Source: Synechococcaceae cyanobacterium (GTDB lineage: Bacteria > Cyanobacteriota > Cyanobacteriia > PCC-6307 > Cyanobiaceae). Taken from it: a stretch of 44,777 nt of DNA. The DNA lies in assembly GCA_947461705.1 (NCBI GenBank), contig CANHMF010000005.1, forward strand, positions 1-44,777, in the 5' to 3' direction. Under the pieces are notes generated by a model. That model was not told where the DNA came from. It saw only the letters and a program-made list of their open reading frames with translations, and ran no database searches. Made by a program: the position numbers and the translations under genes. This document shows, in pieces, positions 6,772 to 33,231 of this stretch (positions within the stretch are counted from its first letter, which is position 1; each line of letters starts with the position of its first letter).

Positions 6772-6775
6772 GCCC

Positions 6776-8293: not shown

Positions 8294-8364
8294 CGGCGAG
8301 TCGTGGCATGCATCGTGGGCATGTTGTAAGTTGTGGAGGCTGAATTGATGACCCCACGAAATCA

Positions 8365-8730
8365 ATGCTCACCGGATCCGAACTGCTGGCCAAGGTCAAG
8401 GAACTGGGCGATGTGGGTAAGTCCGAGATCGTCCGCTCCTGCGGCTATGTCTCCACCAAGAAGGATGGCGGCGAGCGCCTGAACTTCACGGCCTTCTACG
8501 AGGCCCTGCTAGAAGCCAAGGGTGTTGAACTCGGCGTCAGCGGCAAGGTTGGTAAGGGTGGCCGCAAGCTCAGCTATGTGGCCACCGTTCAAGGCAACGG
8601 CAATCTGCTGATTGGCAAGGCCTATACCGCCATGCTCGATCTCAAGCCCGGCGACGAGTTTGAAATCAAGCTGGGTCGTAAGCAGATCCGCCTGATCCCC
8701 GCTGGCTCCACCGAAGAAGAGGAAGAGTGA
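8365..8730 (+). CDS. cyAbrB-type transcriptional regulator
   Basis: A 121-residue protein with the arrangement typical of cyanobacterial AbrB regulators: an N-terminal helical part (LTGSELLAKVKELGDVGKSEIVRSCGY), a central stretch rich in Gly and Lys, and a C-terminal AbrB-like swapped-hairpin part with the LLIGKAYTAMLDLKPGDEFEIKLGRKQIRLIP segment. In this group the AbrB-like domain is at the C-terminus, the reverse of Bacillus AbrB. Such regulators affect carbon and nitrogen metabolism in other cyanobacteria. The acidic tail EEEEE is ordinary for the family. The gene is monocistronic, with only the GNAT gene divergent upstream. Confidence 0.93.
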   Translation: MLTGSELLAKVKELGDVGKSEIVRSCGYVSTKKDGGERLNFTAFYEALLEAKGVELGVSGKVGKGGRKLSYVATVQGNGNLLIGKAYTAMLDLKPGDEFEIKLGRKQIRLIPAGSTEEEEE

Positions 8731-8783
8731 GTCCTGCGGTTCAGCACTCCTGAGGCCCTGGCTGTTACCCCAGCTTTCCGCTC

Positions 8784-17934: not shown

Positions 17935-18432
17935 ATGCTTGAGCTGCTGCCGCCGCTCAACGACCACAACCTGCCCTGGATGGACACGATCCATCCGATC
18001 GTCGTTCACTTTGTGATCGCGATGGCCCTGATCGCCTTCGTGTTCGATCTGGCGGGGGTTGTGCTGCGCAAGCCGGCTCTCTACGAGGTGAGCTTTTGGA
18101 ACCTGCTCTTCGCCACTGGAGCAATCTTCGTGGCGATCATCTTTGGCCAGGTGGAGGCGGGGCTTGCCTCGCCCTATGGGGCCGCCCGCAACATCCTCGA
18201 CATTCACACGACCATCGGCTGGTCACTGGCGGGGATCCTGTCGCTGCTCACCGGCTGGCGCTATGTGCTGCGTAACCGCGACCCCGAAAGCCTCCCCCTT
18301 CCCTTTCTGGGGGCCGGTGGCCTGGTGAGTGCCCTTGTGCTGGTGCAAGTTGTTCTCGGCGACAAGTTGATCTGGACCTATGGCCTCCACACCGTGAAGG
18401 TGGTGGCGGCGATGCGGGAGGGCTTGATCTGA
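17935..18432 (+). CDS. DUF2231 membrane protein (first copy)
   Basis: A 165-residue protein with four membrane helices. It begins with the DUF2231 pattern DTIHPIVVHFVIAMALIAFVFDL, where the H-P-x-x-V-H-F His residues could ligate a metal or heme. HTTIGW and TYGLHTVKV carry further His residues near helix ends. It stands first in the oxidase operon, shares one base with the next gene (TGATG), and the neighbours suggest a role in the assembly or function of the alternative terminal oxidase. No other evidence for function. Confidence 0.88.
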   Translation: MLELLPPLNDHNLPWMDTIHPIVVHFVIAMALIAFVFDLAGVVLRKPALYEVSFWNLLFATGAIFVAIIFGQVEAGLASPYGAARNILDIHTTIGWSLAGILSLLTGWRYVLRNRDPESLPLPFLGAGGLVSALVLVQVVLGDKLIWTYGLHTVKVVAAMREGLI

Positions 18433-19076
18433 TGGCTGCTCTTCCGCTGCTGATGGCGCTGGCTTATAGCCCAGCAGAGGCATCGATCGATCAGATTGCC
18501 TCCACGTTGGGAGCCAATGGCCTCCCTTACTCGCTGCCGATTCACCCAAACCTGGTGCACCTCACCATCGGGTTGTTTGTGATCGCCATCGCCTTCGACG
18601 TGGTGGGCGCGCTCTATCCCCTGGAGAAGCGGGTGTTCCGCTTCCTGGCTCTGCCCATCACCCGGGGTGGCTTCCACGATGTGGGTTGGTACAACCTGCT
18701 GGTGTGCTGCCTGGTGACCTTCTTCACCGTGGCGGCCGGCTTCTACGAAATGCTCACCGCGGTGCCTTTGCCGGGGGTCACCAGCACCTTCGGCGTCGGC
18801 AGCATGACCACCATGCTCTGGCATGGGGTTGGCGGTGTGCTGCTGCTGCTGATCATCACCGGGATGACGGTGTGGCGCGGCTTCCAACGCTTCGTGTGGC
18901 GCCGCGACATGGGCCGCCAGGTGCAGTGGCTCTACCTGGGTGTGGGGCTGGTGATGTTTGCGTTGCTCGGTCTGCACGGCACCCTCGGTGCCCAGTTGGC
19001 CGCTGAGTTCGGAGTGCATATCGCCGCTGATCAGCTGCTCCAGGCCGGGGCTGATCTGCACACCGCCCTGCCCTGA
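18432..19076 (+). CDS. DUF2231 membrane protein (second copy)
   Basis: A 214-residue protein of the same family: the segment LPIHPNLVHLTIGLFVIAIAFDVVGALYP gives the H-P-x-x-V-H pattern again, and HGVGGVLLLLIITGMTVWRG and ALLGLHGTLGAQLAAE lie in later helices. It has a short N-terminal extension (about 35 residues) that could be a weak signal. It stands 14 bases before ctaC, whose GAGGAG ribosome site is within the gap. Two paralogous DUF2231 genes next to an oxidase gene cluster is a recurring layout for the alternative oxidase of cyanobacteria, so I infer a linked role. Confidence 0.88.
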   Translation: MAALPLLMALAYSPAEASIDQIASTLGANGLPYSLPIHPNLVHLTIGLFVIAIAFDVVGALYPLEKRVFRFLALPITRGGFHDVGWYNLLVCCLVTFFTVAAGFYEMLTAVPLPGVTSTFGVGSMTTMLWHGVGGVLLLLIITGMTVWRGFQRFVWRRDMGRQVQWLYLGVGLVMFALLGLHGTLGAQLAAEFGVHIAADQLLQAGADLHTALP

Positions 19077-19090
19077 GGAGATCCTTAACC

Positions 19091-20029
19091 ATGACAAGCT
19101 CCTCGCCTCGACCCATCAACCGCCCGGCGGTGCTGGGCGTGTCCGCCTGGGTGGGCGTGTTGGTGCTGCTCAGCCATTGGATGGGCCAACAGGCCTACCA
19201 CTGGCTTCCGGTGCAGGCTTCCAATGCCGCCCCACTGGTGGATGGCCTGTTCAGCTTCGAAACCGCCCTCGGCACGTTTGTGTTTGCCGCTGTGGTGTCG
19301 GTGATGCTCTGGGTGATGGTGTTCAACCGCGCCGATAAATACGACGCAAGCGATGCCGTTCCGATCGAGGGCAACACCAAGCTCGAAGTGATCTGGACCG
19401 CCATTCCCTTCGTGCTGGTGATGGGAATTGCCGTGTATGCGATGCGGGTGAACCACACGCTGGGGGTGCTGGGCCCGATGGAGCACATTCACGCCCACAA
19501 CACCACGGAGATGCAGGGCGGCTACCCAGGTGATCGCCTGCCTGCAGAGCAGGTGGAAGTGATTGCCAGGCAATGGTCCTGGGAGTTTCGCTATCCGGGC
19601 AGCAACGTGTCGTCCACGGAGCTGCATCTGGCGGTGGACCAACCGGTGACCTTCCGGCTCACCTCAGACGACGTGCTGCATGGCTTTTACATCCCCGCCT
19701 TCCGGTTGAAGCAGGATGTGATTCCCGGTAGGGCCATTGATTTCAGCCTCACGCCCACCCGTGAAGGTCGCTACCGCCTGCGGGATTCGCAGTTCAGTGG
19801 CACCTGGTTCGCCGCCAACCAGGCCGATGTGGTGGTGCAGAGCCAGGACGACTATGCCCATTGGTTGCAGCAGGCCGCCGGTCAACCTCTGCAAGCGGGC
19901 TTGAGCCTGGCTTCCCAGGAATTCAGCGAGCGTCAGCAGCAGAAAAACCCCGGCTGGGCCACGGTGCCACCGGCGCCGCCCCCCCAGGTGAACGTTCCCG
20001 GATCCTCTTCACTCCCCCACGACGGCTGA
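19091..20029 (+). CDS. ctaC: Cytochrome oxidase subunit II lacking CuA ligands (ARTO type)
   Basis: A 312-residue subunit II with two N-terminal membrane helices and a cupredoxin domain in the periplasm or lumen. The substrate-side Trp is in QWSWEF and the first CuA His in DDVLHGF (His197). In the loop that normally reads C-x-E-x-C-x-x-x-H-x-x-M the residues are Asp232, Gln234, Ser236, Phe240 and Asn243, so the dinuclear copper site cannot form. This is the hallmark of the cyanobacterial alternative respiratory terminal oxidase, thought to take electrons from quinol rather than cytochrome c. The C-terminus has a Pro-rich tail. Confidence 0.94.
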   Translation: MTSSSPRPINRPAVLGVSAWVGVLVLLSHWMGQQAYHWLPVQASNAAPLVDGLFSFETALGTFVFAAVVSVMLWVMVFNRADKYDASDAVPIEGNTKLEVIWTAIPFVLVMGIAVYAMRVNHTLGVLGPMEHIHAHNTTEMQGGYPGDRLPAEQVEVIARQWSWEFRYPGSNVSSTELHLAVDQPVTFRLTSDDVLHGFYIPAFRLKQDVIPGRAIDFSLTPTREGRYRLRDSQFSGTWFAANQADVVVQSQDDYAHWLQQAAGQPLQAGLSLASQEFSERQQQKNPGWATVPPAPPPQVNVPGSSSLPHDG

Positions 20030-20033
20030 AGCC

Positions 20034-21710
20034 ATGACCAGCGCCACCTTCCCCGCCGATCCCAAGCCGCCCGCTGGTTGGACCCGTTATTTCGGCTTCA
20101 GCACCGATGCCAAGGTGATTGGTATCCAGTACATCGTGCTGGCGTTTTTCTTCTTCCTGGTGGGTGGCTTTCTGGCCATGATCATCCGGGGTGAATTGAT
20201 CACGCCGGCCTCGGATCTGGTGGATCGCACGGTTTACAACGGCATCTACACGATGCACGGAACCATCATGTTGTTCCTGTTCATCTTTCCGGTGCTGAAC
20301 GGGCTGAACAACCTGTTGATCCCCACCATGATCGGCGCCCCCGACATGGCCTTCCCCAGGCTCAACACGGCGGCCTTCTGGCTGGTGCCCGTGTTCTCCC
20401 TGCTGCTGGTGTCCAGTTTCTTTGTGCCGGGCGGCCCGGCGGCGGCCGGGTGGTGGTCCTATCCACCGGTGAGCATTCAGAACCCCCTCGGCCACTTCAT
20501 CAACGGCCAGTTCCTCTGGATCCTCGCGGTGGCTCTCTCCGGCATCTCCTCGATCATGGGGGCGGTGAATTTCGTGACCACCATCCTGCGGATGCGCGCA
20601 CCGGGCATGACCCTGTTCCGTATGCCGGTGTTCTGCTGGACGGCCTTGGCGGCACAAAGTCTGCAGTTGATCGGTCTGCCTGCCCTCACCGGTGGCGCCA
20701 TCATGTTGCTGATGGATCTCAGTTTCGGCACCAGCTTCTACCGGGCTGAAGGTGGTGGCGATCCGGTGCTGTATCAGCACTTCTTCTGGTTCTATTCTCA
20801 TCCGGCCGTGTATGTGATCATCCTGCCGGTGTTCGGAATCTTCTCCGAGATCTTCCCCGTTTATAGCCGTAAGCCACTGTTTGGCTACGTGTATGTGGCC
20901 GTGGCCTCCTTCATCATTGTGGGTCTGGGATTGGTGGTGTGGGTGCACCACATGTTCCCCAGTGGCGTATCCCAATGGATGCGTGATCTGTTCATGGGAA
21001 CCACCATGCTGATCGCCGTTCCTACCGGTGTGAAGGTGTTTGCCTGGCTGGGGACGATCTGGGGAGGCAAGCTTCGGCTCACCACCCCCATGCTGTTCTG
21101 CCTGGGGGGCTTGTTCAATTTCGTGTTTGCCGGCATCACCGGCATCATGCTGGCCACGGTGCCAGTGGATATTCACGTGTCCAACACTTATTTTGTGGTG
21201 GGCCATTTCCACTATGTGATCTATGGCGCTGCGGTGATGGGCATCTTTGCGGCCATCTACCACTGGTTCCCCAAGTTTACGGGTCGGATGCCCTACGAGG
21301 GCCTTGGCAAACTGCATTGTCTGCTCACTTTCGTGGGGGCGAACCTCAACTTCCTGCCCATGCATCCCCTCGGCCTGATGGGGATGCCCCGCCGGGTGTC
21401 GAGTTACGACCCTGAATTCACCTTCTGGAACGTGATCGCCAGTCTCGGGGCGTTCCTGCTGGGGGTGTCCATCATTCCCTTTCTGCTCAACATGTTGAGC
21501 TCCTGGATTCGTGGACCCAAGGCCGGCCACAACCCTTGGAATGCCATTGGCCTGGAGTGGTTGCTGCCCTCTCCCCCACCGGTGGAGAACTTCGAGGATG
21601 AGGTCCCCACCGTGATCAGCCGGCCGTATGGCTATGGCACTGGTGAACCGCTCGTGGAACACCAGGCGGAGATTGAACGGCGGCTGGAGCTGCAGGAGGC
21701 CACGGCATGA
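20034..21710 (+). CDS. ctaD: Heme-copper oxidase subunit I, type A2
   Basis: A 558-residue subunit I with 12 helices. Catalytic and heme-binding His residues are in YTMHGTIM (low-spin heme), FYSHPAVY (CuB ligand and cross-linked Tyr260), WVHHMF (two CuB ligands) and GHFHYVIYG (high-spin and low-spin heme). The D-channel Glu of A1 oxidases (GHPEVY) is Ala258 in YSHPAVY, which defines the A2 subfamily. The gene starts 4 bases after ctaC, so the two are in one operon. It reduces oxygen to water and pumps protons. The partner subunit II lacks CuA, so the electron donor is probably quinol. Confidence 0.97.
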   Translation: MTSATFPADPKPPAGWTRYFGFSTDAKVIGIQYIVLAFFFFLVGGFLAMIIRGELITPASDLVDRTVYNGIYTMHGTIMLFLFIFPVLNGLNNLLIPTMIGAPDMAFPRLNTAAFWLVPVFSLLLVSSFFVPGGPAAAGWWSYPPVSIQNPLGHFINGQFLWILAVALSGISSIMGAVNFVTTILRMRAPGMTLFRMPVFCWTALAAQSLQLIGLPALTGGAIMLLMDLSFGTSFYRAEGGGDPVLYQHFFWFYSHPAVYVIILPVFGIFSEIFPVYSRKPLFGYVYVAVASFIIVGLGLVVWVHHMFPSGVSQWMRDLFMGTTMLIAVPTGVKVFAWLGTIWGGKLRLTTPMLFCLGGLFNFVFAGITGIMLATVPVDIHVSNTYFVVGHFHYVIYGAAVMGIFAAIYHWFPKFTGRMPYEGLGKLHCLLTFVGANLNFLPMHPLGLMGMPRRVSSYDPEFTFWNVIASLGAFLLGVSIIPFLLNMLSSWIRGPKAGHNPWNAIGLEWLLPSPPPVENFEDEVPTVISRPYGYGTGEPLVEHQAEIERRLELQEATA

Positions 21711-22300
21711 CCAGCGCGATCCCTACGCCTGCTCCAGCCCACGGGCATGCTGAGCACCCCAAGCATAATCTCACCGGCTTCATCATCTTTCTGTGCTCTG
21801 AGAGCGTCATCTTTCTGGCGTTCTTCAGTGGCTACGCCATCCTCAAAACCTCAGCTCTCAACTGGTTGCCGGCCGGTGTGGATGGCCTCGAGTGGCGCAC
21901 CCCCTTGCTCAACACCGTGGTGCTGCTCTCCAGTTCCGGCGCCATCGTGGTGGCCGAGCACTTCAAGGCCAAGGACAAGCTCTGGCTGTTCCGGGGTTTC
22001 TGGCTGCTCACCATGGCCATGGGGGCCTATTTCCTCTATGGCCAGGCGGTGGAGTGGAGCGGCCTGAAGTTCGGGTTCACCTCAGGCACTTTCGGAGGAA
22101 CCTTCTATCTGCTCACCGGCTTCCATGGCCTGCATGTGGCCACGGGCATCCTGCTGATGGGGATCATGCTGATCAAATCGTTCATCCCTGGCAACTACGA
22201 CGGCGGCGAACAGGGTGTTCAGGCCACCTCCCTGTTCTGGCACTTCGTGGATGTGATCTGGGTGGTGCTGTTTCTCCTTCTCTACGTGTGGCAGGCCTGA
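21707..22300 (+). CDS. ctaE: Heme-copper oxidase subunit III
   Basis: A 197-residue subunit III with five membrane helices (GFIIFLCSESVIFLAFFSGYAIL, TVVLLSSSGAIVVAEHF, GFWLLTMAMGAYFLYGQ, FYLLTGFHGLHVATGILLMGIMLI, SLFWHFVDVIWVVLFLLLYV). The conserved E-x-x-H in WHFVDVIW and GFHGLHV motifs identify it. It overlaps ctaD by 4 bases (ATGA), so expression is coupled. It stabilises subunit I. The 16-base gap after it leads directly into the GMC oxidoreductase gene, so the operon may continue through the sugar enzymes. Confidence 0.94.
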   Translation: MTSAIPTPAPAHGHAEHPKHNLTGFIIFLCSESVIFLAFFSGYAILKTSALNWLPAGVDGLEWRTPLLNTVVLLSSSGAIVVAEHFKAKDKLWLFRGFWLLTMAMGAYFLYGQAVEWSGLKFGFTSGTFGGTFYLLTGFHGLHVATGILLMGIMLIKSFIPGNYDGGEQGVQATSLFWHFVDVIWVVLFLLLYVWQA

Positions 22301-22316: not shown

Positions 22317-23831
22317 ATGATCATCGACGACAACCATTACGACGTGATTGTGATCGGCAGCGGTGCTGCCGGTGGCACTCTTGCCGGGCAGTTGGCGGCC
22401 TCCGGCAAGACCGTGCTGCTGTTGGAGCGTGGCGGTGCCATGCCCTTGGCCGATCAGAACGTGGCCGATGTGGATCTGTTCCGCAAAGACCGTTATCACC
22501 CCGGTGAGCAGTGGTTTGGCACGGATGGCGATCCCTTCTCTCCGCAGACGATCTATGCCCTCGGTGGCAACACCAAGATCTGGGGGGGCGTGCTGGAGCG
22601 CATGCGTGAACAGGAGTTCGCCGGTGTGCAGCTGCAGGACGGCACCACCCCCAGCTGGGAGATCAGCTACGCCGACCTGGCGCCCTATTACGAACGGGCT
22701 GAACAGCTCTACCGCGTTCATGGTGTGGCCGGCGTGGATCCCACGGAGCCTCCCCGCAGCGGCGATTACCCAGCCCGACCGCGGCCGGTGGAGCCGTTCA
22801 TGCAGGAGTTGCGCGTTGCCCTCGAGCGCCACGGCAGCCATCCCTACGACTTGCCCCTGAGCTGGTCGGAATCCCACCTGGACCCCACCGGTGATGCCGA
22901 ACTGTTCGGTGTTGATCTGGCCCGCAAGGCCAGCACAGTGACCGTGCGGGAGCGGGCCAAGGTGCGGCGGATGCACGTGAATCCCAGCGGCACCGAAGTG
23001 CGGGCCGTGGAGGTGGAGATCGATGGCCATGCCTGGCTGTTCAGTGCCCATGTGGTGGTGCTGGCCGCCGGTGCCGTGAACAGCGCTGAGATCCTGCTGC
23101 GCTCCGCCACGGACCACCACGCCCGTGGTCTGTCGAATGGTTCGGATCAGGTGGGCCGCAACCTGATGAAGCCCCAGCTCACCTCGATCATCCAGCTGGC
23201 CGCCGCCCCCAATTCCGGCCGCTACGGCCGCAGCTTCGGCATCACCGACTACTACTGGGGCGACCAGAACGTGAGCTTCCCGTTGGGCTCGATTCACAGC
23301 GGTGGCGGCGTCCTTCAGGACGCGCTGTTTGCTGAATCCCCGCCGGTGTTGTCGCTGGTGACCAAGCTGATGCCCAATTTCGGGCTGGAGCAGCTGGCCT
23401 CCCGTTCCGTGGCCTGGTGGGCGATGAGTGCCATGCGGCCTGATCCTCACAACCGGGTGGCCCTGCGGGGCAACCACCTGGAGATTCACTTTGTGGCCAA
23501 CAACCGTGAGGCCCACGACCGCCTGGTGTATCGCTGGATTGACACCCTCAAGCAGGTGGAGGCGGACCCCCTCACCCATGTGGTGAAACCGGCCCCCACC
23601 CATCCCCGCGGCGAGGCGCCCCTGACGGTGCTGGGCAGTGTGTGCGGCACCTGCCGCATGGGCTCCAATCCCGCCACCTCAGTGGTGGATCTCCAGGGCC
23701 AGAGCCATGAGCTGGTCAACCTCTACATCGCTGATGCCAGCCTGTTCCCGAGTTGTCCAGGTGTTGGCATTGGCCTCACGGTGATCGCCAACGCCCTGCG
23801 CATCGGCGAGCGCATCCTGGAGGCCCTGTGA
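22317..23831 (+). CDS. GMC-family flavoprotein, catalytic His and Asn replaced
   Basis: A 504-residue FAD-dependent oxidoreductase of the glucose-methanol-choline family. The FAD-binding motif VIGSGAAGGTLAGQLA near the start, YALGGNTKIWGGVLERM and the C-terminal NLYIADASLFPS are typical. Compared with the paralog three genes downstream, the Cys-rich segment is missing, the His before GTCR is Ser441 (LGSVCGTCRMG), and the Asn of VNPSLT is Gly484 (VGIGLT). The GMC active-site His-Asn pair is therefore absent, and normal substrate oxidation is doubtful. It may have a changed chemistry or act with the second copy. It follows ctaE by 16 bases and overlaps the next gene by 4 bases (GTGA). Confidence 0.9.
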   Translation: MIIDDNHYDVIVIGSGAAGGTLAGQLAASGKTVLLLERGGAMPLADQNVADVDLFRKDRYHPGEQWFGTDGDPFSPQTIYALGGNTKIWGGVLERMREQEFAGVQLQDGTTPSWEISYADLAPYYERAEQLYRVHGVAGVDPTEPPRSGDYPARPRPVEPFMQELRVALERHGSHPYDLPLSWSESHLDPTGDAELFGVDLARKASTVTVRERAKVRRMHVNPSGTEVRAVEVEIDGHAWLFSAHVVVLAAGAVNSAEILLRSATDHHARGLSNGSDQVGRNLMKPQLTSIIQLAAAPNSGRYGRSFGITDYYWGDQNVSFPLGSIHSGGGVLQDALFAESPPVLSLVTKLMPNFGLEQLASRSVAWWAMSAMRPDPHNRVALRGNHLEIHFVANNREAHDRLVYRWIDTLKQVEADPLTHVVKPAPTHPRGEAPLTVLGSVCGTCRMGSNPATSVVDLQGQSHELVNLYIADASLFPSCPGVGIGLTVIANALRIGERILEAL

Positions 23832-26491
23832 CGGACGCGATGGGTTCTGAACTCCGCCGTATGGCGGAGCGTGACCACGAACAGGTGCCGTGGGATCTGT
23901 GGGGCAGCTATCTGCCCGATCGCCAGTGGGGCACGGTGCGGGAGGACTATTCCGCCGACGGCAATGCCTGGGTGTCCTTCCCCCACGACCATGCCCGTTC
24001 CCGGGTGTACCGCTGGGGTGAAGACGGGCTGCTCGGCATCTGCGACAACCAGTGCCGCCTGTGTTTTTCGGTGGCGCTCTGGAATGGTGTGGATCCGATC
24101 CTGAAGGAGCGACCGTACGGGCTCGGTAACCCCGAGGGCAACCACGGCGAGGACATCAAGGACTACTACTTCCACATCGCCAATACCCCCACCCATAGCT
24201 TCATGCGGGGGCTCTACAAGTACCCCCAGCAGCGCTTTCCCTACGAGCAGCTGATTGCTGAAAATGCACGCCGTGGTCGCGATCAGCCCGAGTATGAGCT
24301 GGTGGATACGGGCATCTTTGACGACAGCCGCTACTTCGATGTGTTCATCGAGTACGCCAAGGCCTCCCCTGAGGACATCGCCATTCGGATTCGGGTGCTG
24401 AACCGTGGCCCCGAAGCGGCCCCGCTCACCCTGTTACCCACCCTCTGGCTGCGCAACACCTGGGGCTGGGGCTACCCCGATGAGCAGGAGCGACCCCTGC
24501 AGCTTGAAGGCGATGCGGTGCTCGCCCATCCCGGCGGTGGGATCGGTGCCTATCGGTTGGCCTGCCGCGACCAGGGCGACTGGCTCTTCACCGATAACGA
24601 GACCAATACCGAGCGGTTGTTTGGCGAGCCCAATGCGAAGCCCTTCCAGAAGGATGGGTTTCACCGGTTTCTGATCGACGGAGAGCAGGATGCCATCAAC
24701 CCCCAGCGCTGCGGCACCAAGGCCGCGCGCCTGCTGAGGCGCACCCTGGCCGCAGGTGAGGAGTGGACCGTGGAGTTACGGCTCACCGGCTCAGCCTCAG
24801 AGGGTTCTGCCCAGGCCTTTGGTGAGGAGTTTGATCAGCTTTTCACGACCCGCGAGCAGCAGTGGCGCGACTTCTTTGAGTCGCGGGTGCCCAACCTCTT
24901 CGAGGATGATCGGCTGCTGCACAGCTCTGGGGCCGCAGGGCTGTTGTGGTGCAAGAAGTATTACGGCTGGAGTGTGCAGCGCTGGCTGACGGGGGATCCC
25001 ACCACACCGCCTCCACCGCATCAGCGCTGGCTCACGGAGAACGCCCAGTGGCAGCGGCTGCATGCCCATGATGTGATCTCGATGCCCGATGCCTGGGAGT
25101 ATCCCTACTTCTGCCAGTGGGACCTGATGTTCCACTCCGTGGCTTTTGCGGTGTTCGATCCGGCCACAGCAAAGGAGCAGTGCATGTTGCTGCGCTCCCC
25201 TCACTACACGGCCCCCAACGCCCAGACCCCTGCCTACGAGTGGGCCCTGTCCGACCCCAATCCCCCCATCGGGGCCTGGGCTGCCATGCGCATCTTCCAG
25301 ATCGATCGCAAGACCTGCGAAGAGCCTGATCTGGTCTTCCTGCGCGCGGCCCTGCGCAAGCTGATCCTGGAATACGGCTGGTGGGCCAACCGCAACGATC
25401 GCTCCGGCGACAACGTGTTTGAGGGTGGATTCCTCGGCCTCGACAACATTGCCGTGTTTGATCGGCGCTATCCCCTCGCTGATGGCAGTCATATCGAGCA
25501 GTGCGATGGCACCTCCTGGATGGCCTCCCTCAGCCTCAATCTCCTCAATATCAGTGTGGAGCTTAGCCGGGAAGAGCCGGAATATGCGGATCTCTCTGAG
25601 CGTTTTGTCTTCGACTTTGTGCAATTAGCTCTTACCCTTAACACCCCTGGTAGCCGCGGTTATGTGAACTGGGATGAACAGGATGGTTTCTATTATGATG
25701 TGATCAAGCGCCCTGATGGCAGCGCGGAATATCTGCGGAGTCGTTCAGTTTCCGGCTTGATTCCCTTGCTGGCGGTGGCCAGCTTTGATGTGGATACGGT
25801 GAAGCGCCTGCCCTGCTTGGACGTGCGCCAGAGCCTGGCCTGGTTTCTGCATGAGCGCACCAGTCCTGGTTGGTTGGTGGAGCATCTCGGCGAATGGCGG
25901 AATGACCGCTTGCTGTTTTCGCTGGTGCCGGAACCCCGGCTCAAGCGCATCTGTGAGCGGCTGTTTGATGAAGATGAGTTCCTCTCTCCCTATGGCATTC
26001 GGGCCCTCTCCAAGGTGTATGAGGACAATCCCTACACCTTCACGGAAGGTGCCCAGACCCAAACCCTCGCCTATAGCCCAGCGGATAGTCCGGTGGCCAT
26101 GTTTGGCGGCAACTCCAACTGGCGTGGCCCTGTGTGGATGCCGATCAACTTCCTGTTGATCGAATCCCTGCAGAAGTTTGGCCACTACTACGGCGATAGC
26201 TTCATGGTGGAGTTTCCCACCCGCTCAGGGCAATGGATGACCCTCTGGGATGCCTCCCTGCAGCTGGAGCAGCGGCTCGTGAATCTCTTCCGTCGCAACG
26301 GCGCCGGACAGCGACCCTTCAACGGCGATGTGGAGTTGTTCCAATCGGATCCCCATTGGCGTGATCTGATTCAGTTCAACGAATATTTTCATGGTGATAA
26401 TGGCCGCGGTGTGGGCGCCAGCCATCAGACGGGCTGGAGCGCCATGGTTTGCAAAATGATCAATCAGTTGAGTCGCTATCCCACTACCTGA
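23828..26491 (+). CDS. MGH1-like / GH63-related glycoside hydrolase
   Basis: An 887-residue (alpha/alpha)6-barrel glycosidase of the large bacterial glucosidase family (MGH1-like, related to GH63). Landmarks: the start RQWGTVREDYSADGNAWVSFPHDHARSR, LWNGVDPILKERPYGLGNPEGNHGEDIKD, DTGIFDDSRYFDVFIEYAKA, and the C-terminal GGNSNWRGPVWMPINFL. No signal peptide is visible, so it is likely cytoplasmic. It overlaps the first GMC gene (GTG start at 23828, stop of GMC ends 23831); ATG 23840 is an alternative. By family it releases glucose or related sugars from glucosides, but substrate is not fixed by the sequence. Between two GMC genes, it may supply sugar substrate to them. Confidence 0.9.
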   Translation: MTDAMGSELRRMAERDHEQVPWDLWGSYLPDRQWGTVREDYSADGNAWVSFPHDHARSRVYRWGEDGLLGICDNQCRLCFSVALWNGVDPILKERPYGLGNPEGNHGEDIKDYYFHIANTPTHSFMRGLYKYPQQRFPYEQLIAENARRGRDQPEYELVDTGIFDDSRYFDVFIEYAKASPEDIAIRIRVLNRGPEAAPLTLLPTLWLRNTWGWGYPDEQERPLQLEGDAVLAHPGGGIGAYRLACRDQGDWLFTDNETNTERLFGEPNAKPFQKDGFHRFLIDGEQDAINPQRCGTKAARLLRRTLAAGEEWTVELRLTGSASEGSAQAFGEEFDQLFTTREQQWRDFFESRVPNLFEDDRLLHSSGAAGLLWCKKYYGWSVQRWLTGDPTTPPPPHQRWLTENAQWQRLHAHDVISMPDAWEYPYFCQWDLMFHSVAFAVFDPATAKEQCMLLRSPHYTAPNAQTPAYEWALSDPNPPIGAWAAMRIFQIDRKTCEEPDLVFLRAALRKLILEYGWWANRNDRSGDNVFEGGFLGLDNIAVFDRRYPLADGSHIEQCDGTSWMASLSLNLLNISVELSREEPEYADLSERFVFDFVQLALTLNTPGSRGYVNWDEQDGFYYDVIKRPDGSAEYLRSRSVSGLIPLLAVASFDVDTVKRLPCLDVRQSLAWFLHERTSPGWLVEHLGEWRNDRLLFSLVPEPRLKRICERLFDEDEFLSPYGIRALSKVYEDNPYTFTEGAQTQTLAYSPADSPVAMFGGNSNWRGPVWMPINFLLIESLQKFGHYYGDSFMVEFPTRSGQWMTLWDASLQLEQRLVNLFRRNGAGQRPFNGDVELFQSDPHWRDLIQFNEYFHGDNGRGVGASHQTGWSAMVCKMINQLSRYPTT

Positions 26492-26553
26492 GGCAGCCAA
26501 AACCTTCAACGCTGTCTAGCTTGTGGGCAACGTGTCGGCCTCTGGCTGAGCCC

Positions 26554-28149
26554 ATGGTTGCCTCTCTTCCGTCCCTTGAGCAGCTGCAGGTTCCTGCGCA
26601 GACTCACTTTGATATGTTGATCATCGGCAGCGGGGCTGGGGGTGGCAGCCTGGCCCATCAGTTGGCCCCTTCTGGTCTGAAGATCCTCGTGTTGGAGCGG
26701 GGCGATTGGTTGCCCCGTGAGCGGGAGAACTGGGATGCCGATGCGGTGATGCAGCAGGGTCGCTATGTGTCGAAGGACACCTGGTTCGACCGGCATGGCA
26801 AGCCGTTCCAGCCCGGTAGCCATTACTTCGTGGGTGGTGCCACCAAGATGTACGGCGCGGCCCATTTCCGCCTGCGTCAGCGGGATTTTGAAGAGCTGCA
26901 CCATCACGACGGCATCTCGCCGGCCTGGCCCCTGCGCTACAGCGATTTCGAGCCCTATTACCAGCGGGCTGAGCAACTCTTCCATGTGCATGGTCTGCGG
27001 GGGGAAGATCCCACCGATCCCCCCAGCTCGGCACCCTTCCCCTATCCGCCGGTGTCCCATGAACCGCGGATGCAGAAACTGGTGGACGATCTGCGCGCCA
27101 TTGGTCTGCATCCCAGCCATGCGCCTTGCGGCGTGATGCTCGATGAAATCAATCCAGCCTTCAGCCGCTGCATTCGCTGCAACCGCTGCGATGGTTTCCC
27201 CTGTCTGGTGCATGCCAAAGGTGATGCGGAGGTGTGCTCGATGCGCCCCGCCTTGCAGGCGTCCAACGTGTCCCTGCTCACCCGCGCCCAGGTGAAGCGG
27301 TTGATCACCGATGCCTCCGGCCGCACGGTTACGGCGGTGGAGCTAGAGCGCGATGGTGAGCCGCTGCGGTACTCGGCTGACATCGTGGTGGTGAGCTGTG
27401 GCGCTGCCAACAGTGCCCGGCTGCTGTTGATGTCGGCCAACGACAAGCATCCCCGTGGCCTGGCCAACAGTTCGGATCAGGTGGGGCGGAACTATATGTT
27501 CCATAACAGCAAAGCCATGGTGGCCCTGGCCCATGAGCCCAACACCACCGTGTTTCAGAAAACGGTGTGCATTAACGACTGGTATTTCGGCTCGGAAGAC
27601 TTTGACTATCCGATGGGGAATATCCAGATGACGGGCAAAACGGATGGCTCGATCATGAAGGGCTATGTGCCCCAGGAAACCTTCTTCATGCCCACCTGGA
27701 GCATGGATAAGATCGCTGAGCATGCCCTGGATTTCTGGGTGTCAAGTGAGGATCTGCCGGACCCCAACAACCGCGTCACCATCAATGCGGAGGGTCAGAT
27801 TCATTTGAGCTACACCCCGAACAACCAGATGGCTGCCACGAAGCTCAACAACAAGCTCGTGTCCGTGTTGGATCACCTCTACCTCAAGAACCATCTGGTG
27901 GAGCGCCAGATCTATTTCAAGAGCACCATGGGAATCGCTGCCGTGGGGCACCAGGCCGGCACCTGCCGTTTTGGCACGGATCCAGCCAGTTCGGTGCTGG
28001 ACATTCACTGCAAGGCCCACGACCTCGACAATCTCTACGTGGTGGACACCAGCTTCTTCCCCAGCATTGGAGCGGTGAACCCCTCACTCACAGCCATCGC
28101 CAATGCCATTCGCGTTGGCGAGCATCTGGTGGAGCGCTTGGGCCGTTAA
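26554..28149 (+). CDS. GMC-family FAD oxidoreductase with Cys cluster
   Basis: A 531-residue protein. The FAD motif IIGSGAGGGSLA (residues 23-34) and the substrate-domain residues are intact: His466 in GHQAGTCRFG and Asn509 in GAVNPSLT, the GMC active-site pair. The region Cys206, Cys209, Cys212, Cys217 and Cys228 (SRCIRCNRCDGFPC then EVCSM) forms a Cys cluster that resembles the 3Fe-4S or disulfide region of GMC dehydrogenases related to fructose and gluconate dehydrogenase. No signal peptide is seen. A sugar- or alcohol-type dehydrogenase role is expected. It is convergent to the DoxX operon, with 15 bases between the ends. The ATG at 26554 follows a 62-base gap after the hydrolase; an upstream frame reaching back into the hydrolase is rejected. 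Confidence 0.9.
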   Translation: MVASLPSLEQLQVPAQTHFDMLIIGSGAGGGSLAHQLAPSGLKILVLERGDWLPRERENWDADAVMQQGRYVSKDTWFDRHGKPFQPGSHYFVGGATKMYGAAHFRLRQRDFEELHHHDGISPAWPLRYSDFEPYYQRAEQLFHVHGLRGEDPTDPPSSAPFPYPPVSHEPRMQKLVDDLRAIGLHPSHAPCGVMLDEINPAFSRCIRCNRCDGFPCLVHAKGDAEVCSMRPALQASNVSLLTRAQVKRLITDASGRTVTAVELERDGEPLRYSADIVVVSCGAANSARLLLMSANDKHPRGLANSSDQVGRNYMFHNSKAMVALAHEPNTTVFQKTVCINDWYFGSEDFDYPMGNIQMTGKTDGSIMKGYVPQETFFMPTWSMDKIAEHALDFWVSSEDLPDPNNRVTINAEGQIHLSYTPNNQMAATKLNNKLVSVLDHLYLKNHLVERQIYFKSTMGIAAVGHQAGTCRFGTDPASSVLDIHCKAHDLDNLYVVDTSFFPSIGAVNPSLTAIANAIRVGEHLVERLGR

Positions 28150-28164
28150 GCGGCCGCCGCCCCA

Positions 28165-28662
28165 TCAATTCAGGGCCAGCCTGAGCAGGTCTGCAATCAG
28201 GAGGTTGTCGAGGGAGAACAGGCCGCCGCCGCAGAACATGGTGACCAGGCACATCACCACGTACATGGCGGCCTTCTCCCAGCTCGGCGGCTCACCGATT
28301 CCCATGGGGCCCACGTAGTCGCCCTCCGGAATCTGGTAGGGATCCGGTGCAAACCAGGGGAAGCCCGCCTTGATCTCGATCACCATGGCGTACGCCATGG
28401 AGACGAGGATCGCCAGGGCGGCCAGGGGCGTGAGCAGTCCGGGAATCAGGGCAATGCCGGCCCCCCACATGGAGGCCGCGGAGAGAAAACACAGCCATTG
28501 CGGCGTGTTCATCGCCGTGGCCCAGGTTTTCAGGTTGCGCAGTTTGGGCCAGCCGTGGCGAATGAAGGCGATGCCCAGGAACAGGCGCAGCACCAACAGC
28601 GAGGCCTGGGCCAGGGTTGAAGGCGCCTCTGGCACCAGCAGTTCCACCACGGTGATCTCCAT
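28165..28662 (-). CDS. DoxX-family membrane protein
   Basis: A 165-residue protein with four membrane segments. The segment LLVLRLFLGIAFIRHGWPKLRN and GAGIALIPGLLTPLAALAILVSMAYAMVIEIK are typical of the DoxX/DoxD-like family, which includes subunits of thiosulfate:quinone oxidoreductases and many membrane proteins of redox stress. It is the last gene of a minus-strand run of seven genes. The start at 28662 is chosen because the protein then starts right before the first helix; the gap to the previous stop is 61 bases. Confidence 0.86.
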   Translation of the reverse strand: MEITVVELLVPEAPSTLAQASLLVLRLFLGIAFIRHGWPKLRNLKTWATAMNTPQWLCFLSAASMWGAGIALIPGLLTPLAALAILVSMAYAMVIEIKAGFPWFAPDPYQIPEGDYVGPMGIGEPPSWEKAAMYVVMCLVTMFCGGGLFSLDNLLIADLLRLALN

Positions 28663-28723
28663 TGCGAGGCCTCTTGCTGGGCGCAAGGTAGAGACGTTTG
28701 GTTGGGCTTGCACACCCCTGTGA

Positions 28724-29707
28724 TCAGGGGCTCACCAGTTGCAGTTGGTGGCCATCGGGATCGCGCACCTGAAGGCCACGGCCGAAGCCCAGCAGCTCCG
28801 CCTGGGCTGGCTCGAGCTGCACGATGCCGGGGCTCACCCTGCTGCCGCCATGGCTCTCCAGCTGGGCGTCGATCGAATCGAGATCACTCACCTCGAGGCG
28901 TATCTGCCAGTGGGCAAGATCCGCGGCGTGCTGATCGGCTGGTATGGGGCGGCCCCCCTGGGGCTGTTGGTAGTTCAGGCATTCCACCCCAGCTCCTTCG
29001 CCGCAGCGATGGGATGTGATCTGCACCTGGGTGTTGTCCAGGCCATCGAGCTGGTCTTGTTCCGGGCCGCTGTTGATGCCGTTGCCCCCCAGCCGCAGCC
29101 CCAGCAGCCCTTCGTAGAACCGGCAGCTCCGTGGGGTGTCGGCATTGGCGATGGCGCTGTGGTCGATGCCGAGGAAGGGTGAGGTCGCCGAGCCGGCCGC
29201 CTGATGCCAGCGGGCGTCGCCTTTGTCCGGTGGGAACTGCAGCAGCTCCAGGCAGTGGCCTTCCGGGTCATGCACTTTGTAAGCCTGAATGCCGGCAGCG
29301 GCGGCGTTCCAGCTCGGCAGGGTCTGAGGTGCCGTGGAGATGGCCGCCAGCGCTCCTGCCGCAACGCTGGCCTGGAGCGGCGCTGCAGCCTCGGCCATGG
29401 TGGCCACCACAATGCAGATGTGCTGGAACCACAGATCGCAGCTGCGGGAATCGCCTGGCACGGGCCGGCCGGGCCGCAGGCCGGGGCCCAGGGTCAGCAC
29501 CTCGGTGAGCTCCAGCTGTTCCTGGCCTAGTTGCAGTTGCAGCAGCTGCAACCGTGAACCGGGCAGCCCGATCAGTTCCGCGTAGTTGCCGCCCTCGATG
29601 ACCAGGCTCCGGCCTGGCTGACACCCCAGGTTCGCGCCATAGAAGTGCGCCAGTTGCTCGGCATGGGCCGTGGTGAAGCCAAGGCTGCGGATGTGGGGGA
29701 GGTTCAT
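28724..29707 (-). CDS. Double-domain VOC/glyoxalase-fold protein
   Basis: A 327-residue protein with two glyoxalase/bleomycin-resistance-like (VOC) units: residues 4-160 (LGFTTAHAEQLAHFYGANLGCQPG; ending KVHDPEGHCLELLQFP) and residues 177-326 (GIDHSAIANADTPRSCRFYEGLLGL; ending QVRDPDGHQLQLV). Each ends in the D-P-x-G-H-x-x-x-L motif with metal-binding positions. Such tandem-domain proteins may be dioxygenases, isomerases or fosfomycin-type enzymes, so the reaction is uncertain. Its start overlaps the stop of the upstream gene by 4 bases (ATGA), confirming the operon. Confidence 0.84.
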   Translation of the reverse strand: MNLPHIRSLGFTTAHAEQLAHFYGANLGCQPGRSLVIEGGNYAELIGLPGSRLQLLQLQLGQEQLELTEVLTLGPGLRPGRPVPGDSRSCDLWFQHICIVVATMAEAAAPLQASVAAGALAAISTAPQTLPSWNAAAAGIQAYKVHDPEGHCLELLQFPPDKGDARWHQAAGSATSPFLGIDHSAIANADTPRSCRFYEGLLGLRLGGNGINSGPEQDQLDGLDNTQVQITSHRCGEGAGVECLNYQQPQGGRPIPADQHAADLAHWQIRLEVSDLDSIDAQLESHGGSRVSPGIVQLEPAQAELLGFGRGLQVRDPDGHQLQLVSP

Positions 29708-30129
29708 GGTTGGCTTTGCAGGGCCTGCAGGCCTGCACTGGCGATGGCGGCATCCAGGTCCGGAGTCATCCCGGAGACGCCGATGGCTCCGATGCAGCTG
29801 GAGCCGATCAGGAAGGGGAGCCCGCCCGCCATGGCAGCGGACGGTTGCTGCAGCAGCCCTGCCAGCTGCAGCAGGCCTGGCCGGGACCCATTGATGCTCG
29901 CTTCCATCTCCGCGGTGGGCTTGCCACAGAGGGCGGCCATGCGTGCCTTGGCGATCGCGGTTTCACCACTGGAAATGCTGGCACCGTCCAGGCGTTGGAA
30001 GGCCAGCAGATGGCCGCCACCATCCACCACCGCAACGCTCACCAGCCCCTGGTGGCTGTCGGCATGGGCGCGGCTGGCCTGCAGGGCCAGTGCGGCGTCG
30101 TTTAGATCGAGGGTTTGTTGGGGATGCAT
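29704..30129 (-). CDS. GlcG/HbpS-like (DUF336) heme-binding-type protein
   Basis: A 141-residue protein of the GlcG/HbpS family. Signatures are VSVAVVDGGGHLLAFQRLDGA near residue 30-50 and the SAAMAGGLPFLIGSSCIGAIGVSGM segment near 95-120, where the family packs an octameric scaffold. HbpS members bind heme or respond to redox; GlcG stands next to glycolate oxidation genes. The presence beside a lactonase and glyoxalase is in line with GlcG-type operons. It overlaps the next gene by 4 bases. Confidence 0.85.
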   Translation of the reverse strand: MHPQQTLDLNDAALALQASRAHADSHQGLVSVAVVDGGGHLLAFQRLDGASISSGETAIAKARMAALCGKPTAEMEASINGSRPGLLQLAGLLQQPSAAMAGGLPFLIGSSCIGAIGVSGMTPDLDAAIASAGLQALQSQP

Positions 30130-30142
30130 CGGGACTGGCTCC

Positions 30143-30400
30143 TCAACCCCAGACGATCTTCATCAGCCAGAGGTGACCCTCCAGCTCCACGCCGGCGGCG
30201 GCGGCCTCCAGGTCGGCCTGGCTGAGCCGCAGGGTGGCCTCCGCCTGGTGTGTCACCAGATCGACTCCCGTGAACACATAGCCCAGTTCCGCCCCGAGCT
30301 GGGCGATGGCATTGAGATGGGGGCAGGCGCTGAAGCGAGACAACAGATCGGCATCGGCCTTCACGCGCTGGAGAAAGGCTTCGAGTTGGGGGTTGGCCAT
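30143..30400 (-). CDS. Nif11-like leader peptide protein
   Basis: An 85-residue protein. The start NPQLEAFLQRVKADADLLSR and AIAQLGAELGYVF are the Nif11 domain pattern. Near the end LSQADLEAAAAG (residues 59-70) resembles the LSDEELEAVAGG cleavage signal of Nif11 precursor peptides, with the Gly pair weakened to Ala-Gly. The 15-residue tail that follows, VELEGHLWLMKIVWG, has no Cys, Ser or Thr, so classic lanthionine formation is not possible. It could be a degenerate RiPP precursor or a Nif11 protein with another role. It lies 6 bases after the SMP-30 gene and is in the same operon. Confidence 0.85.
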   Translation of the reverse strand: MANPQLEAFLQRVKADADLLSRFSACPHLNAIAQLGAELGYVFTGVDLVTHQAEATLRLSQADLEAAAAGVELEGHLWLMKIVWG

Positions 30401-30406
30401 GGGGAT

Positions 30407-31330
30407 TCAGGGCGTTTGGGCGCCGCGGGTGTTGGTGAACAGGCTGTAGAGCGCCGTGGAGGCGCACAGAAAGATGCGGCTGTGGTGGCGGTCGCCGAAG
30501 CAGAGGTTCGACACTCGCCTGGGCACCAGCACCTTGCCCAGCAGGGTGCCGTCGGGGGCAACCACGTGGACGCCATCGCCAGCGCCGCACCAGAGGTTGC
30601 CGTGTTCATCCACGCGGAAGCCATCGGCCCAGCCGCAGCTGATCTTGTGGAACAGCTCGCCACCGCTGAGGCTGCGGCCATCGGCGCTCACCTGGAAGCG
30701 TCGGATGTACTGGCGCGGGTTGGCCACGCCGGCGCTCCCGGATTCCGCCACATAGAGCACGCTCTCGTCGGGGGAGAAGGCCAGGCCGTTGGGGCCGTCG
30801 AAGTCGGTGGCCATCGCCTGCACAGCCCCGGACTCGGGCTCAAGGCGGTAAAGCGCAGGGGGCTGCTCGGAGTGCTGGCGCCCGCCCTCGTAGTCATTGA
30901 GCAGGCCGTAGAGGGGATCGCTGAACCAGATCGAGCCATCCCGTTTCACCACCACGTCGTTGGGGGCGTTGAGCCGATGCCCCCCGGCCTGGCTCACCAG
31001 GGTGGTGCTGCTGCCGTCGTGCTCCAGACGGCTGAGGCAGCGGCTCTGGTGGTGGCACTGAATCAGCCGCCCCTGTGGGTCGCGGGTTTGGCCGTTGGCG
31101 TACTGCGAGGACTCGTGGAACACGCTCACCCCATGCTGTTCGCTCCAGCGCAGGGTGCGGTTGTTGGGGATGTCGTTGAACAGCAGACACTGGTGGTCGC
31201 CGAACCACACCGGCCCCTCCAGCCAGCGGAAGCCCTCGGCGAGCAGCTCCAGCTCGGCGTTGAACAGCACCAGCTGCTCAAAGCGCGGGTCGTAGCTCTC
31301 GGTGCAGGGGGAGGGGTGGGTGCTCGCCAT
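30407..31330 (-). CDS. SMP-30/gluconolactonase-family lactonase
   Basis: A 307-residue six-bladed beta-propeller. Metal-site residues are visible: Glu in WLEGPVWF, Asn in NAPNDVVV, Asn in DGPNGLAFS and Asp in WADGFRVD, matching Glu, Asn and Asp ligands of SMP-30. No signal peptide, so it is probably cytoplasmic. Family members hydrolyse gluconolactone or other sugar lactones. With two GMC oxidoreductases, a glycosidase and a glucose-dehydrogenase-like SDR nearby, lactone hydrolysis in a sugar oxidation pathway is a natural reading, although it is an inference. Confidence 0.9.
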   Translation of the reverse strand: MASTHPSPCTESYDPRFEQLVLFNAELELLAEGFRWLEGPVWFGDHQCLLFNDIPNNRTLRWSEQHGVSVFHESSQYANGQTRDPQGRLIQCHHQSRCLSRLEHDGSSTTLVSQAGGHRLNAPNDVVVKRDGSIWFSDPLYGLLNDYEGGRQHSEQPPALYRLEPESGAVQAMATDFDGPNGLAFSPDESVLYVAESGSAGVANPRQYIRRFQVSADGRSLSGGELFHKISCGWADGFRVDEHGNLWCGAGDGVHVVAPDGTLLGKVLVPRRVSNLCFGDRHHSRIFLCASTALYSLFTNTRGAQTP

Positions 31331-31350
31331 CGCTGTGGGGTTGGTGGTGG

Positions 31351-31812
31351 TCAGGAGAAGAACCCCGGCCGTGCCCGCCGCCAGGCCTGGTCGTTGCGCT
31401 GAATGATCAGCTGCACGCAGGGTTCATCCCCCACCTGGGCGGAGAGATGGCCCCGCTGTCCCGCGGGTGTGGCGATGCAGTCCTGGTCGCCCCCGAAGGA
31501 ATACTCGCCGGCCCGCATGATCACCTTGCGGCCATCCATGCTTTCCACCGACCAGGCCCCGCGCAGCACGTAGATCCATTTGGGGATGTGGTTCTCATGC
31601 CAGTCGGCCGTCCAGCCCACGGGCAGGTAGGTCACGAAGGCATTGCCCTGATCGAACAGGGGGCGGGAGAACTGCGGGGAATCACCGGGGCCCAGTTGGC
31701 CGAGCTCGAAGGAGCTGATCGTGCACTGCTCCTGCCGACTGAGGCCCTGGTCGTCGGTCCAGAGATGCCAATAGGGCTCCGGTGCCGGAGCCAGGCTGAA
31801 GGGGTCAGGCAT
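31351..31812 (-). CDS. Cupin-domain protein
   Basis: A 153-residue single-domain cupin. Motif 1 is WTADWHENHIPKWIYVLRGAWSVE (His in WHENH) and motif 2 is AGEYSFGGDQDCIATPAGQRGHLS. His of both motifs could bind a metal, but the usual Glu of motif 1 is Lys-Trp. Cupins beside RidA and SMP-30 genes are often dioxygenases or isomerases in small-molecule catabolism. It lies 12 bases after RidA and 20 before SMP-30, so one transcript is likely. Confidence 0.85.
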   Translation of the reverse strand: MPDPFSLAPAPEPYWHLWTDDQGLSRQEQCTISSFELGQLGPGDSPQFSRPLFDQGNAFVTYLPVGWTADWHENHIPKWIYVLRGAWSVESMDGRKVIMRAGEYSFGGDQDCIATPAGQRGHLSAQVGDEPCVQLIIQRNDQAWRRARPGFFS

Positions 31813-31824
31813 GGTTGAAGGGGA

Positions 31825-32229
31825 TCAGTCTTTGATGGCGATGGCGGAAATCTCCAGCTGGATGCCCAGCACCAGGGCCGCCACCTGCACCACGGCCCGG
31901 GAGGGATAGCCCTGGCTGTCGGGGAAGTACTCCTGCCACACCAGATCAAAGGTGTCGAGCTTGTCGATGTCAGTGAGATACACGGTGGCACTCACGACGT
32001 GTTCAAAACCAAAGCCTGCCTCCTCGAGCACCGCCCGCATGTTCTCCATCACCTGACGCGATTCCACGGTGATGTCGCCGTCGCCCACCTTGAGGTTGGT
32101 GACGGGGTCGACCGGTAGCTGCCCGGTGATGAACAGTGTGTTGTTGTGCTGAAAACCCTGGCTGTAAGAGGCAACGGGCTTGGGGAAGCGGTCGCTGTGG
32201 ATGGCGCGACGGATCACAGCTGTGCTCAT
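31825..32229 (-). CDS. RidA-family enamine/imine deaminase
   Basis: A 134-residue protein of the RidA (YjgF) family. The residues SRAVVQVAAL with the Arg that binds the substrate carboxylate and the EISAIAI end are kept, as are TGQLPVDPVTN and ATVYLTDIDKLDTFDLVWQEYF. It hydrolyses reactive enamines and imines made by PLP enzymes and oxidases. The start at 32229 is preferred to a longer in-frame version; the MSTAVIRRAIHSDRFPKP beginning is typical. It is the first gene of a seven-gene minus-strand operon and lies 11 bases after the inverted repeat. Confidence 0.91.
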   Translation of the reverse strand: MSTAVIRRAIHSDRFPKPVASYSQGFQHNNTLFITGQLPVDPVTNLKVGDGDITVESRQVMENMRAVLEEAGFGFEHVVSATVYLTDIDKLDTFDLVWQEYFPDSQGYPSRAVVQVAALVLGIQLEISAIAIKD

Positions 32230-32240
32230 CGGCGTATCGG

Positions 32241-32264
32241 CGTTGCAGAGATCTCTCTGCAACG
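32241..32264. promoter_or_regulatory. Perfect inverted repeat with 11-bp arms in the ridA/SDR divergent region
   Basis: Arms CGTTGCAGAGA and TCTCTGCAACG are exact reverse complements separated by TC. The repeat lies 11 bases before the RidA start codon and inside the 195-base region between the RidA operon and the SDR gene. Perfect repeats of this length are typical of operators bound by TetR-, LacI- or GntR-type dimers. A half-site GTTGCAGA recurs near the SDR start at 32353. A hairpin in the RidA leader is the other reading. No regulator gene is in the window. Confidence 0.6.
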
Positions 32265-32424
32265 TAGGGATCTCCTGGCAGATGTCAGCGCCCTGTCATG
32301 GGTCGAAGGCCGGATCACCTGCCGCTGGCGTGAGCGTCTCCCATTCACAGGTGTTGCAGATGGCGGCATGGCTTGCAGGTGCCCACTAGCGTGCGCGCAA
32401 CATGCTCCCTCGCCTGGCTGCGCC

Positions 32425-33231
32425 ATGACCACAATCAATCCCTACGCGCTTGAAACCCTTTCCAACTTTCTTAAGGGCAAGGTGATCATCGTGACTGGTG
32501 GCAACAGCGGCATCGGGAAGGCGATTGTGGAAACCATTGGCCGGCTGGGCGCCAAGGTGGTGATCGACTACCGCTCCCATCCCGAAGCCACCGAGGCGAT
32601 CGAGGAGGAGATTGGCGAATTGGGGGGCACTTGTATCGGCGTGCAGGCCGACGTGGGCAAGCTCGAGGATCTGCAGCGGCTGATCAACGAGGCCGTGAGC
32701 CGTTACGGCCGCCTCGATGTGATGGTGAACAACGCCGGCATTGAAACGCGCACCTCCATCCTCGACACCACACCCGACGATTTCGACAAGGTGTTGAACG
32801 TGAACCTGCGGGGCGTGTTCTTCGCCACCCAGTACGCGGCCAAGCAGATGATCGCCCAGGGAGGCGGTGGTCGGGTGATCAATATCTCGTCGGTGCATGA
32901 GGACTGGCCCATGCCCAATAACACTCCCTACTGCGTGGCGAAGGGGGGCGTGCGCATGCTCACCCGCACCGCCGGTGTGGAGCTCGCTCCCCATGGCGTG
33001 TCGATCGTGAATGTGGGCCCTGGTGCGGTGGCCACCCCCATCAACGACTCCACGATGAACAACCCTGAGCTGCTGGCCAAGCTCAACGCCGCGATCCCCA
33101 TGGGACGCATGGCCCAGCCCGAGGAGATCGCCAAGCTGGTGGCCTTCCTGGCGAGTGACTCTGCCAGTTACATCACGGCCACCACCATCTTTGCGGATGG
33201 CGGCATCATGCAGAGCAGCCCGGGCCTCTGA
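32425..33231 (+). CDS. SDR-family oxidoreductase, glucose 1-dehydrogenase-like
   Basis: A 268-residue classical short-chain dehydrogenase. TGGNSGIG (NAD(P)-binding, residues 27-34), NNAGIE, the ISSVHEDW Ser, and YCVAKGG with Tyr and Lys are all in place. The N-terminal and central segments (KVVIDYRSHPEATEAI, YGRLDVMVNNAG) and the C-terminal FLASDSASYITATTIFADGGI match glucose 1-dehydrogenase-type SDRs. The reading frame extends upstream but ATG 32425 gives the normal length. It is divergent from the RidA operon and next to an inverted repeat. A role in glucose oxidation is probable but not proven. Confidence 0.9.
   Translation: MTTINPYALETLSNFLKGKVIIVTGGNSGIGKAIVETIGRLGAKVVIDYRSHPEATEAIEEEIGELGGTCIGVQADVGKLEDLQRLINEAVSRYGRLDVMVNNAGIETRTSILDTTPDDFDKVLNVNLRGVFFATQYAAKQMIAQGGGGRVINISSVHEDWPMPNNTPYCVAKGGVRMLTRTAGVELAPHGVSIVNVGPGAVATPINDSTMNNPELLAKLNAAIPMGRMAQPEEIAKLVAFLASDSASYITATTIFADGGIMQSSPGL

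Follow-up and report, generated by a model that had tools for sequence, protein, structure and literature searches.

The stretch of DNA analysed here (positions 1 to 44,777 of contig CANHMF010000005.1 from a Synechococcaceae cyanobacterium, hereafter the window, 44,777 nucleotides in length) encodes an alternative respiratory terminal oxidase (ARTO), and the oxidase genes are directly followed by one for a protein with the fold of the glucose–methanol–choline (GMC) oxidoreductases, all on the forward strand. The ARTO cluster begins with two DUF2231 membrane proteins, a (17935–18432) and b (18432–19076), each with four conserved histidines (at positions 20, 25, 91 and 152, and 38, 43, 131 and 196, respectively), and continues with ctaC (19091–20029), encoding an oxidase subunit II that lacks the CuA ligands, as is typical of ARTO, ctaD (20034–21710), encoding the haem–copper oxidase subunit I with its conserved histidines, and ctaE (21707–22300), encoding subunit III. 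The last of these ends 16 bp before the ORF that is the subject of this work (22317–23831), which is intact, starts with ATG and encodes a GMC-fold protein of 504 amino acids, P1 (P0001), lacking both the catalytic residue pair and the cysteine cluster of its relatives. Downstream and on the same strand, outside the ARTO module, lie a GH63/MGH1-like glucosidase gene (23753–26491), the listed ORF of which overlaps the end of P1 and probably has its true start further in, and the gene of P2 (P0002; 26554–28149), an intact-type GMC protein from a different clade used here for comparison, with His466, Asn509 and a cysteine cluster. P2 comprises 531 amino acids from its ATG, and its open frame runs upstream to a TTG at 26449.

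P1 belongs to the GMC fold superfamily by both homology and fold. It matches PF05199 (GMC_oxred_C) with 60.3 bits (cut-off 24.6) and PF00732 (GMC_oxred_N) with 26.3 bits (cut-off 23), and its AlphaFold2 model (pLDDT 92.9, pTM 0.94) is closest to the large subunit of fructose dehydrogenase (Z score 46.8 over 472 residues) and to FAD glucose dehydrogenase (Z score 38.3), other GMC enzymes matching at a Z score of about 36. The FAD-binding features are retained, namely the GxGxxG motif with invariant Gly14, Gly16 and Gly19, Glu37, a GGN motif and Asp473, in agreement with the preliminary description of this gene. A mycofactocin dehydrogenase MftG (TIGR03970) identity was rejected, the score of 60 bits falling short of the cut-off, 387. 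The FAD-containing large subunits of membrane fructose dehydrogenase (9jqa, 7w2j) and of the FAD glucose dehydrogenase of Burkholderia cepacia (BcGDH; 6a2u), in which electrons enter the FAD aided by a His/Asn pair and exit through a 3Fe-4S cluster, are the solved structures that come closest to P1 along its entire length. Unlike them, P1 possesses neither the pair corresponding to His476 and Asn519 of BcGDH nor the cysteine loop for the 3Fe-4S cluster, and it is flanked by an oxidase operon and a glucosidase; at this locus, to which the comparison was confined with no dedicated genome-wide search, the adjoining genes are ctaE and the GH63 gene and not a gamma subunit or a multihaem cytochrome c.

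The replacement of the active-site residues is unambiguous in the alignments. P1 and P2 share 37% identity over 519 columns, in which Ser441 of P1 (codon 23637–23639) aligns with His466 of P2 and Gly484 (codon 23766–23768) with Asn509, while the P2 segment containing Cys206, Cys209, Cys212 and Cys217 has no counterpart in P1; the two substitutions and the deletion of the Cys206–Cys228 segment (27169–27237 in the P2 gene), as originally described, were thus confirmed. The alignment with BcGDH is gapless through the active-site loop, with residues 442–500 of P1 on 477–535, and therefore places Ser441 and Gly484 at the positions of His476 and Asn519, the catalytic pair of BcGDH (PMC6719666). The 3Fe-4S cluster of that enzyme is held by Cys212, Cys218 and Cys222 (PMC6719666), and the loop carrying these cysteines is deleted in P1. 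Judged against the residue pairs known for GMC enzymes (PMC8171062), P1 has neither the canonical active-site histidine nor, at the second position, any of His, Asn or the rarer Pro, Arg and Ser.

These losses extend across the whole group of orthologues. The His+Asn pair is present in all 46 intact-type relatives compared and in none of 136 distinct proteins of the P1 clade, so that a survey of this locus for orthologues retaining both residues returned only partial pairs, His+Ser in 13 and His+Gly in two of the 136. At the histidine column the orthologues display Y, F, S, G, N, L, Q, V, A, I or H, with no consistent substitute, and at the asparagine column mostly Gly; this is the outcome, at the level of sequence, for the alternative that other residues have taken over the two places. 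Variability at the histidine column reaches the 91st–93rd percentile within the clade, flanked by nearly fixed G-T-C and M-G, and on a 142-row tree 25 Fitch changes were counted there versus six at the asparagine column. A statement drawn from the initial sample, that histidine is almost gone from picocyanobacteria, had to be narrowed after wider sampling found His+Ser in all eight sampled members of one picocyanobacterial genus. Two candidate innovations were also rejected: Ser441 as a newly acquired, specific catalytic residue, since the column wanders and the serine most likely derives from a tyrosine stage, and the CxxC motif (Cys443–Cys446) as a redox centre peculiar to P1, since HQCGTCRF is common in intact relatives. 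Newly arisen invariants of the clade are an N-terminal MIIDD, Ser346 and His400, the last being invariant within the clade and not conserved outside it.

P1 is under purifying selection. Its dN/dS, computed against six picocyanobacterial orthologues and one near relative, lies between 0.05 and 0.27, a range resembling that of the neighbouring ctaE, GH63 and P2 genes, and many residues, including the FAD motif, are invariant in a 45-sequence alignment with identities down to 46%. Open frames have been retained across a range that extends from plasmids of Nostocales to picocyanobacteria with genomes of 1.7 Mb. An in-frame TAG in the P1 gene of four genomes was rejected, the coding alignment being stop-free over residues 1–500. 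In a single genome (G261, L157) the orthologue is broken across two reading frames, by either a genomic frameshift or a sequencing error.

The association of P1 with the oxidase is almost constant. At 104 of 105 orthologous loci (a few of which represent one genome present in two collections) ctaE is located upstream of P1 in the same orientation, the gap between them having a median of 14 bp and not exceeding 120 bp in 93 cases; at the exceptional locus the DUF2231 marker is found about 6 kb upstream, also on the same strand. Wherever the fetched DNA was long enough the order was DUF2231a–DUF2231b–ctaC–ctaD–ctaE–P1, an arrangement that spans Nostocales plasmids and unicellular picocyanobacteria. 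Of 386 sampled genomes, 99 have the DUF2231b marker and 48 have P1, the latter all contained within the former; in a few of those with the marker, parts of the oxidase are missing. P1 is an optional companion of ARTO, never met without it in this sampling. The oxidase itself is of the ARTO type and encoded by a type-1 operon, as judged from the ligand histidines retained in subunit I, the CuA-less subunit II (all 52 CtaC sequences compared lack conserved cysteines and the usual CuA motif) and the two upstream membrane proteins. The type-1 ARTO (Qox/Cox3) operon of Anabaena 7120, alr2729–alr2730–coxB3–coxA3–coxC3, has the matching gene order and a CuA-less subunit II but, as described, consists of five genes and contains no GMC gene; further ARTO subunits have not been excluded, and the full make-up of the complex is considered unsettled (PMC6616624). 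No paper on a GMC gene associated with ARTO or with cyanobacterial terminal oxidases was found among the open-access papers searched.

With the active-site and cysteine columns removed from the alignment, the tree groups all ARTO-linked GMC proteins in one clade with support of 100/100. This clade branches from within cyanobacterial enzymes that have His, Asn and the cysteines, next to a sequence (L113/L158) encoded in a neighbourhood with GH63 and SDR genes in a genome without the DUF2231 marker. P1 is a descendant of a GMC dehydrogenase with the His/Asn pair and the cysteine cluster. The description of P1 as a paralogue that lost these features holds only in a deep sense, tree and synteny revealing no recent duplication. 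The deepest ARTO-linked branch, from Trichormus variabilis ATCC 29413 and Nostoc edaphicum, shows Asn+Ser at the His+Asn positions and retains the cysteine cluster together with other residues conserved in intact enzymes. The second branch has His+Ser and no cysteine cluster, and is followed in tree order by Asn+Ser/Pro/Thr, by Tyr+Gly and finally by the picocyanobacterial mixture; later members of the clade also lack several residues conserved in intact enzymes. The asparagine was lost once, at the base of the clade, while the early history of the histidine may have involved either two losses or a regain in the His+Ser branch, and the serine of P1 most likely descends from tyrosine. The picocyanobacterial genus with His+Ser is nested inside the Tyr-type group, and its histidine is hence probably secondary. 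The clade preserves intermediates, a stepwise record of an enzyme in which the catalytic pair was lost first, and then the cysteine cluster and other conserved residues, while the protein was retained for a different role.

Taken together, these observations make it somewhat more probable than its opposite that P1 is the product of the sixth gene of the type-1 ARTO operon and a putative FAD-binding accessory subunit without classical GMC catalysis. The protein would still bind FAD but would not use the GMC mechanism to oxidize alcohols or sugars, lacking the base, the second residue and the Fe–S exit. An accessory role is preferred to a catalytic one mainly because both the entry and the exit of the dehydrogenase electron path are missing. 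P1 would dock onto ARTO or onto its DUF2231 membrane proteins, where a structural, assembly or redox-sensing role is slightly favoured; the docked protein might otherwise serve as a flavin relay, with the DUF2231 proteins (candidate haem-b carriers) or the quinone pool as acceptor. In each DUF2231 protein the four histidines are at least 98% conserved, which would suit membrane carriers of haem b, and if P1 relays electrons these proteins would be its natural acceptors; DUF2231b had no match among solved structures. A physical association of P1 with CtaCDE and DUF2231, suggested by genetic linkage and co-occurrence, is part of the same reading and shares its slightly better than even standing. 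P1 is in this respect a concrete candidate for an extra ARTO subunit, one that accompanies the oxidase and offers a flavin fold without the usual chemistry.

Some observations weigh against this assignment. Just over half of the DUF2231-marker genomes in the 386-genome sample (51 of 99) have no P1, which is accordingly not essential to the oxidase. The His+Ser pair of the 13 clade members is known from the GMC enzyme CtFDO (PMC8171062), so that some members of the clade could be active, P1 itself differing from CtFDO in being Ser+Gly with no histidine. Finally, the invariant His400 might act as a base from another position.

An alternative is that P1 is still an enzyme but has changed its substrate or its chemistry, being an FAD dehydrogenase with no base or a different one that feeds electrons into plastoquinone or ARTO; we regard this as possible if doubtful. 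The retained fold and FAD motifs, the delivery of electrons to respiratory chains by near fold relatives and the clade-specific invariance of His400 are consistent with such a function, and fatty acid photodecarboxylase (FAP) illustrates that the GMC fold can support quite different chemistry with Ala and Gln aligned at the His and Asn places. FAP matches the P1 model with a Z score of 35.4, at about 20% identity and with a sequence alignment limited to the two ends, and P1 differs from it in being a cyanobacterial, ARTO-linked protein. Against an altered enzyme stand the histidine column, which settles on no single residue, the disappearance of the cysteine cluster and of several other residues conserved in intact enzymes, and the fact that no constant neighbour apart from ARTO points to a substrate. 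A more specific version, in which P1 would be a new flavoenzyme using FAD without His/Asn, whether by a one-electron or light-driven reaction like that of FAP or with His400 or another residue elsewhere as the base, and passing electrons to ARTO via haem-b DUF2231 proteins, is unlikely.

It is also distinctly unlikely that P1 serves as the flavin component of an ARTO-linked reduction of ferric iron. ARTO has been proposed to be a ferric reductase in Synechocystis (PMC7676907), and the cluster lies near feoB on the Trichormus and Nostoc plasmids, but no iron gene adjoins P1 in the window.

A partner or regulatory subunit of P2, one of the roles put forward in the preliminary description, is very improbable for P1. 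Both in the window and in many genomes of the Vulcanococcus/Cyanobium type, the two genes share a strand, with the GH63 gene between them; however, 35 of 94 P1-bearing genomes in a family sample have no P2-type match, and the link between P1 and ARTO spans orders in which P2 does not adjoin P1. On the tree, P2 is far from the P1 clade, grouped with plasmid-borne genes of other bacteria. P2-type cyanobacterial GMC oxidoreductases share with P1 about 37–45% identity, PF00732 and PF05199, and the GTC loop but, unlike P1, keep His+Asn and the CxxC...DGFPC cluster, and, where the neighbourhood was read, are found in sugar cassettes and not beside ARTO. Of the earlier proposal, a non-classical role such as that of an accessory subunit survives as the best reading, while the partnership with the copy at 26554 is wrong or unsupported, P2 being part of a distinct cassette for sugar oxidation that has counterparts in other bacteria. 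P1 is better described as an ancient protein of GMC fold, belonging to the ARTO operon, that lost its catalytic pair, its role as a subunit being on balance probable.

Decay of P1 as a passenger in the oxidase operon, to which the drifting active-site position and the split gene of one genome could point, is scarcely credible, being already contradicted by the dN/dS values, the retained open frames and the many invariant positions; chance or decay as the cause of the active-site losses is ruled out by the contrast in His+Asn between intact relatives and the P1 clade together with dN/dS, and the original view that the gene is not decaying stands.

Several minor observations were made at the ARTO loci. 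The four near-invariant histidines of each DUF2231 protein (17935–19076) follow one shared spacing pattern, HxxxxH...H...H. One genome (G257, L151) contains two ctaE–P1 copies, at 6641–9745 and 18059–19899, ctaE being duplicated along with P1, and at the first of these ctaE is immediately preceded by the DUF2231 pair, apparently with no ctaC or ctaD in between. DUF2231 pairs without detectable neighbouring ctaCDE occur at two further loci (L149 and L150), and the pair can therefore exist apart from ARTO. On two Nostocales plasmids (L110 and L138) the ARTO–P1 cluster stands beside cydAB and near feoB, with a GMC protein of the Asn+Ser intermediate type and an intact cysteine cluster.

Elsewhere in the window, the sugar-oxidation cassette (23753–33231) comprises the GH63 glucosidase, P2, DoxX, VOC, GlcG-like, gluconolactonase, cupin, RidA and SDR genes, and similar gene sets surround GMC genes in plasmid records of Acaryochloris (L137), Gloeothece (L111) and Paraburkholderia (L133). 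An ORF on the reverse strand (7188–8399) pairs a Nif11 domain with a cupin-like stretch, an unusual combination.
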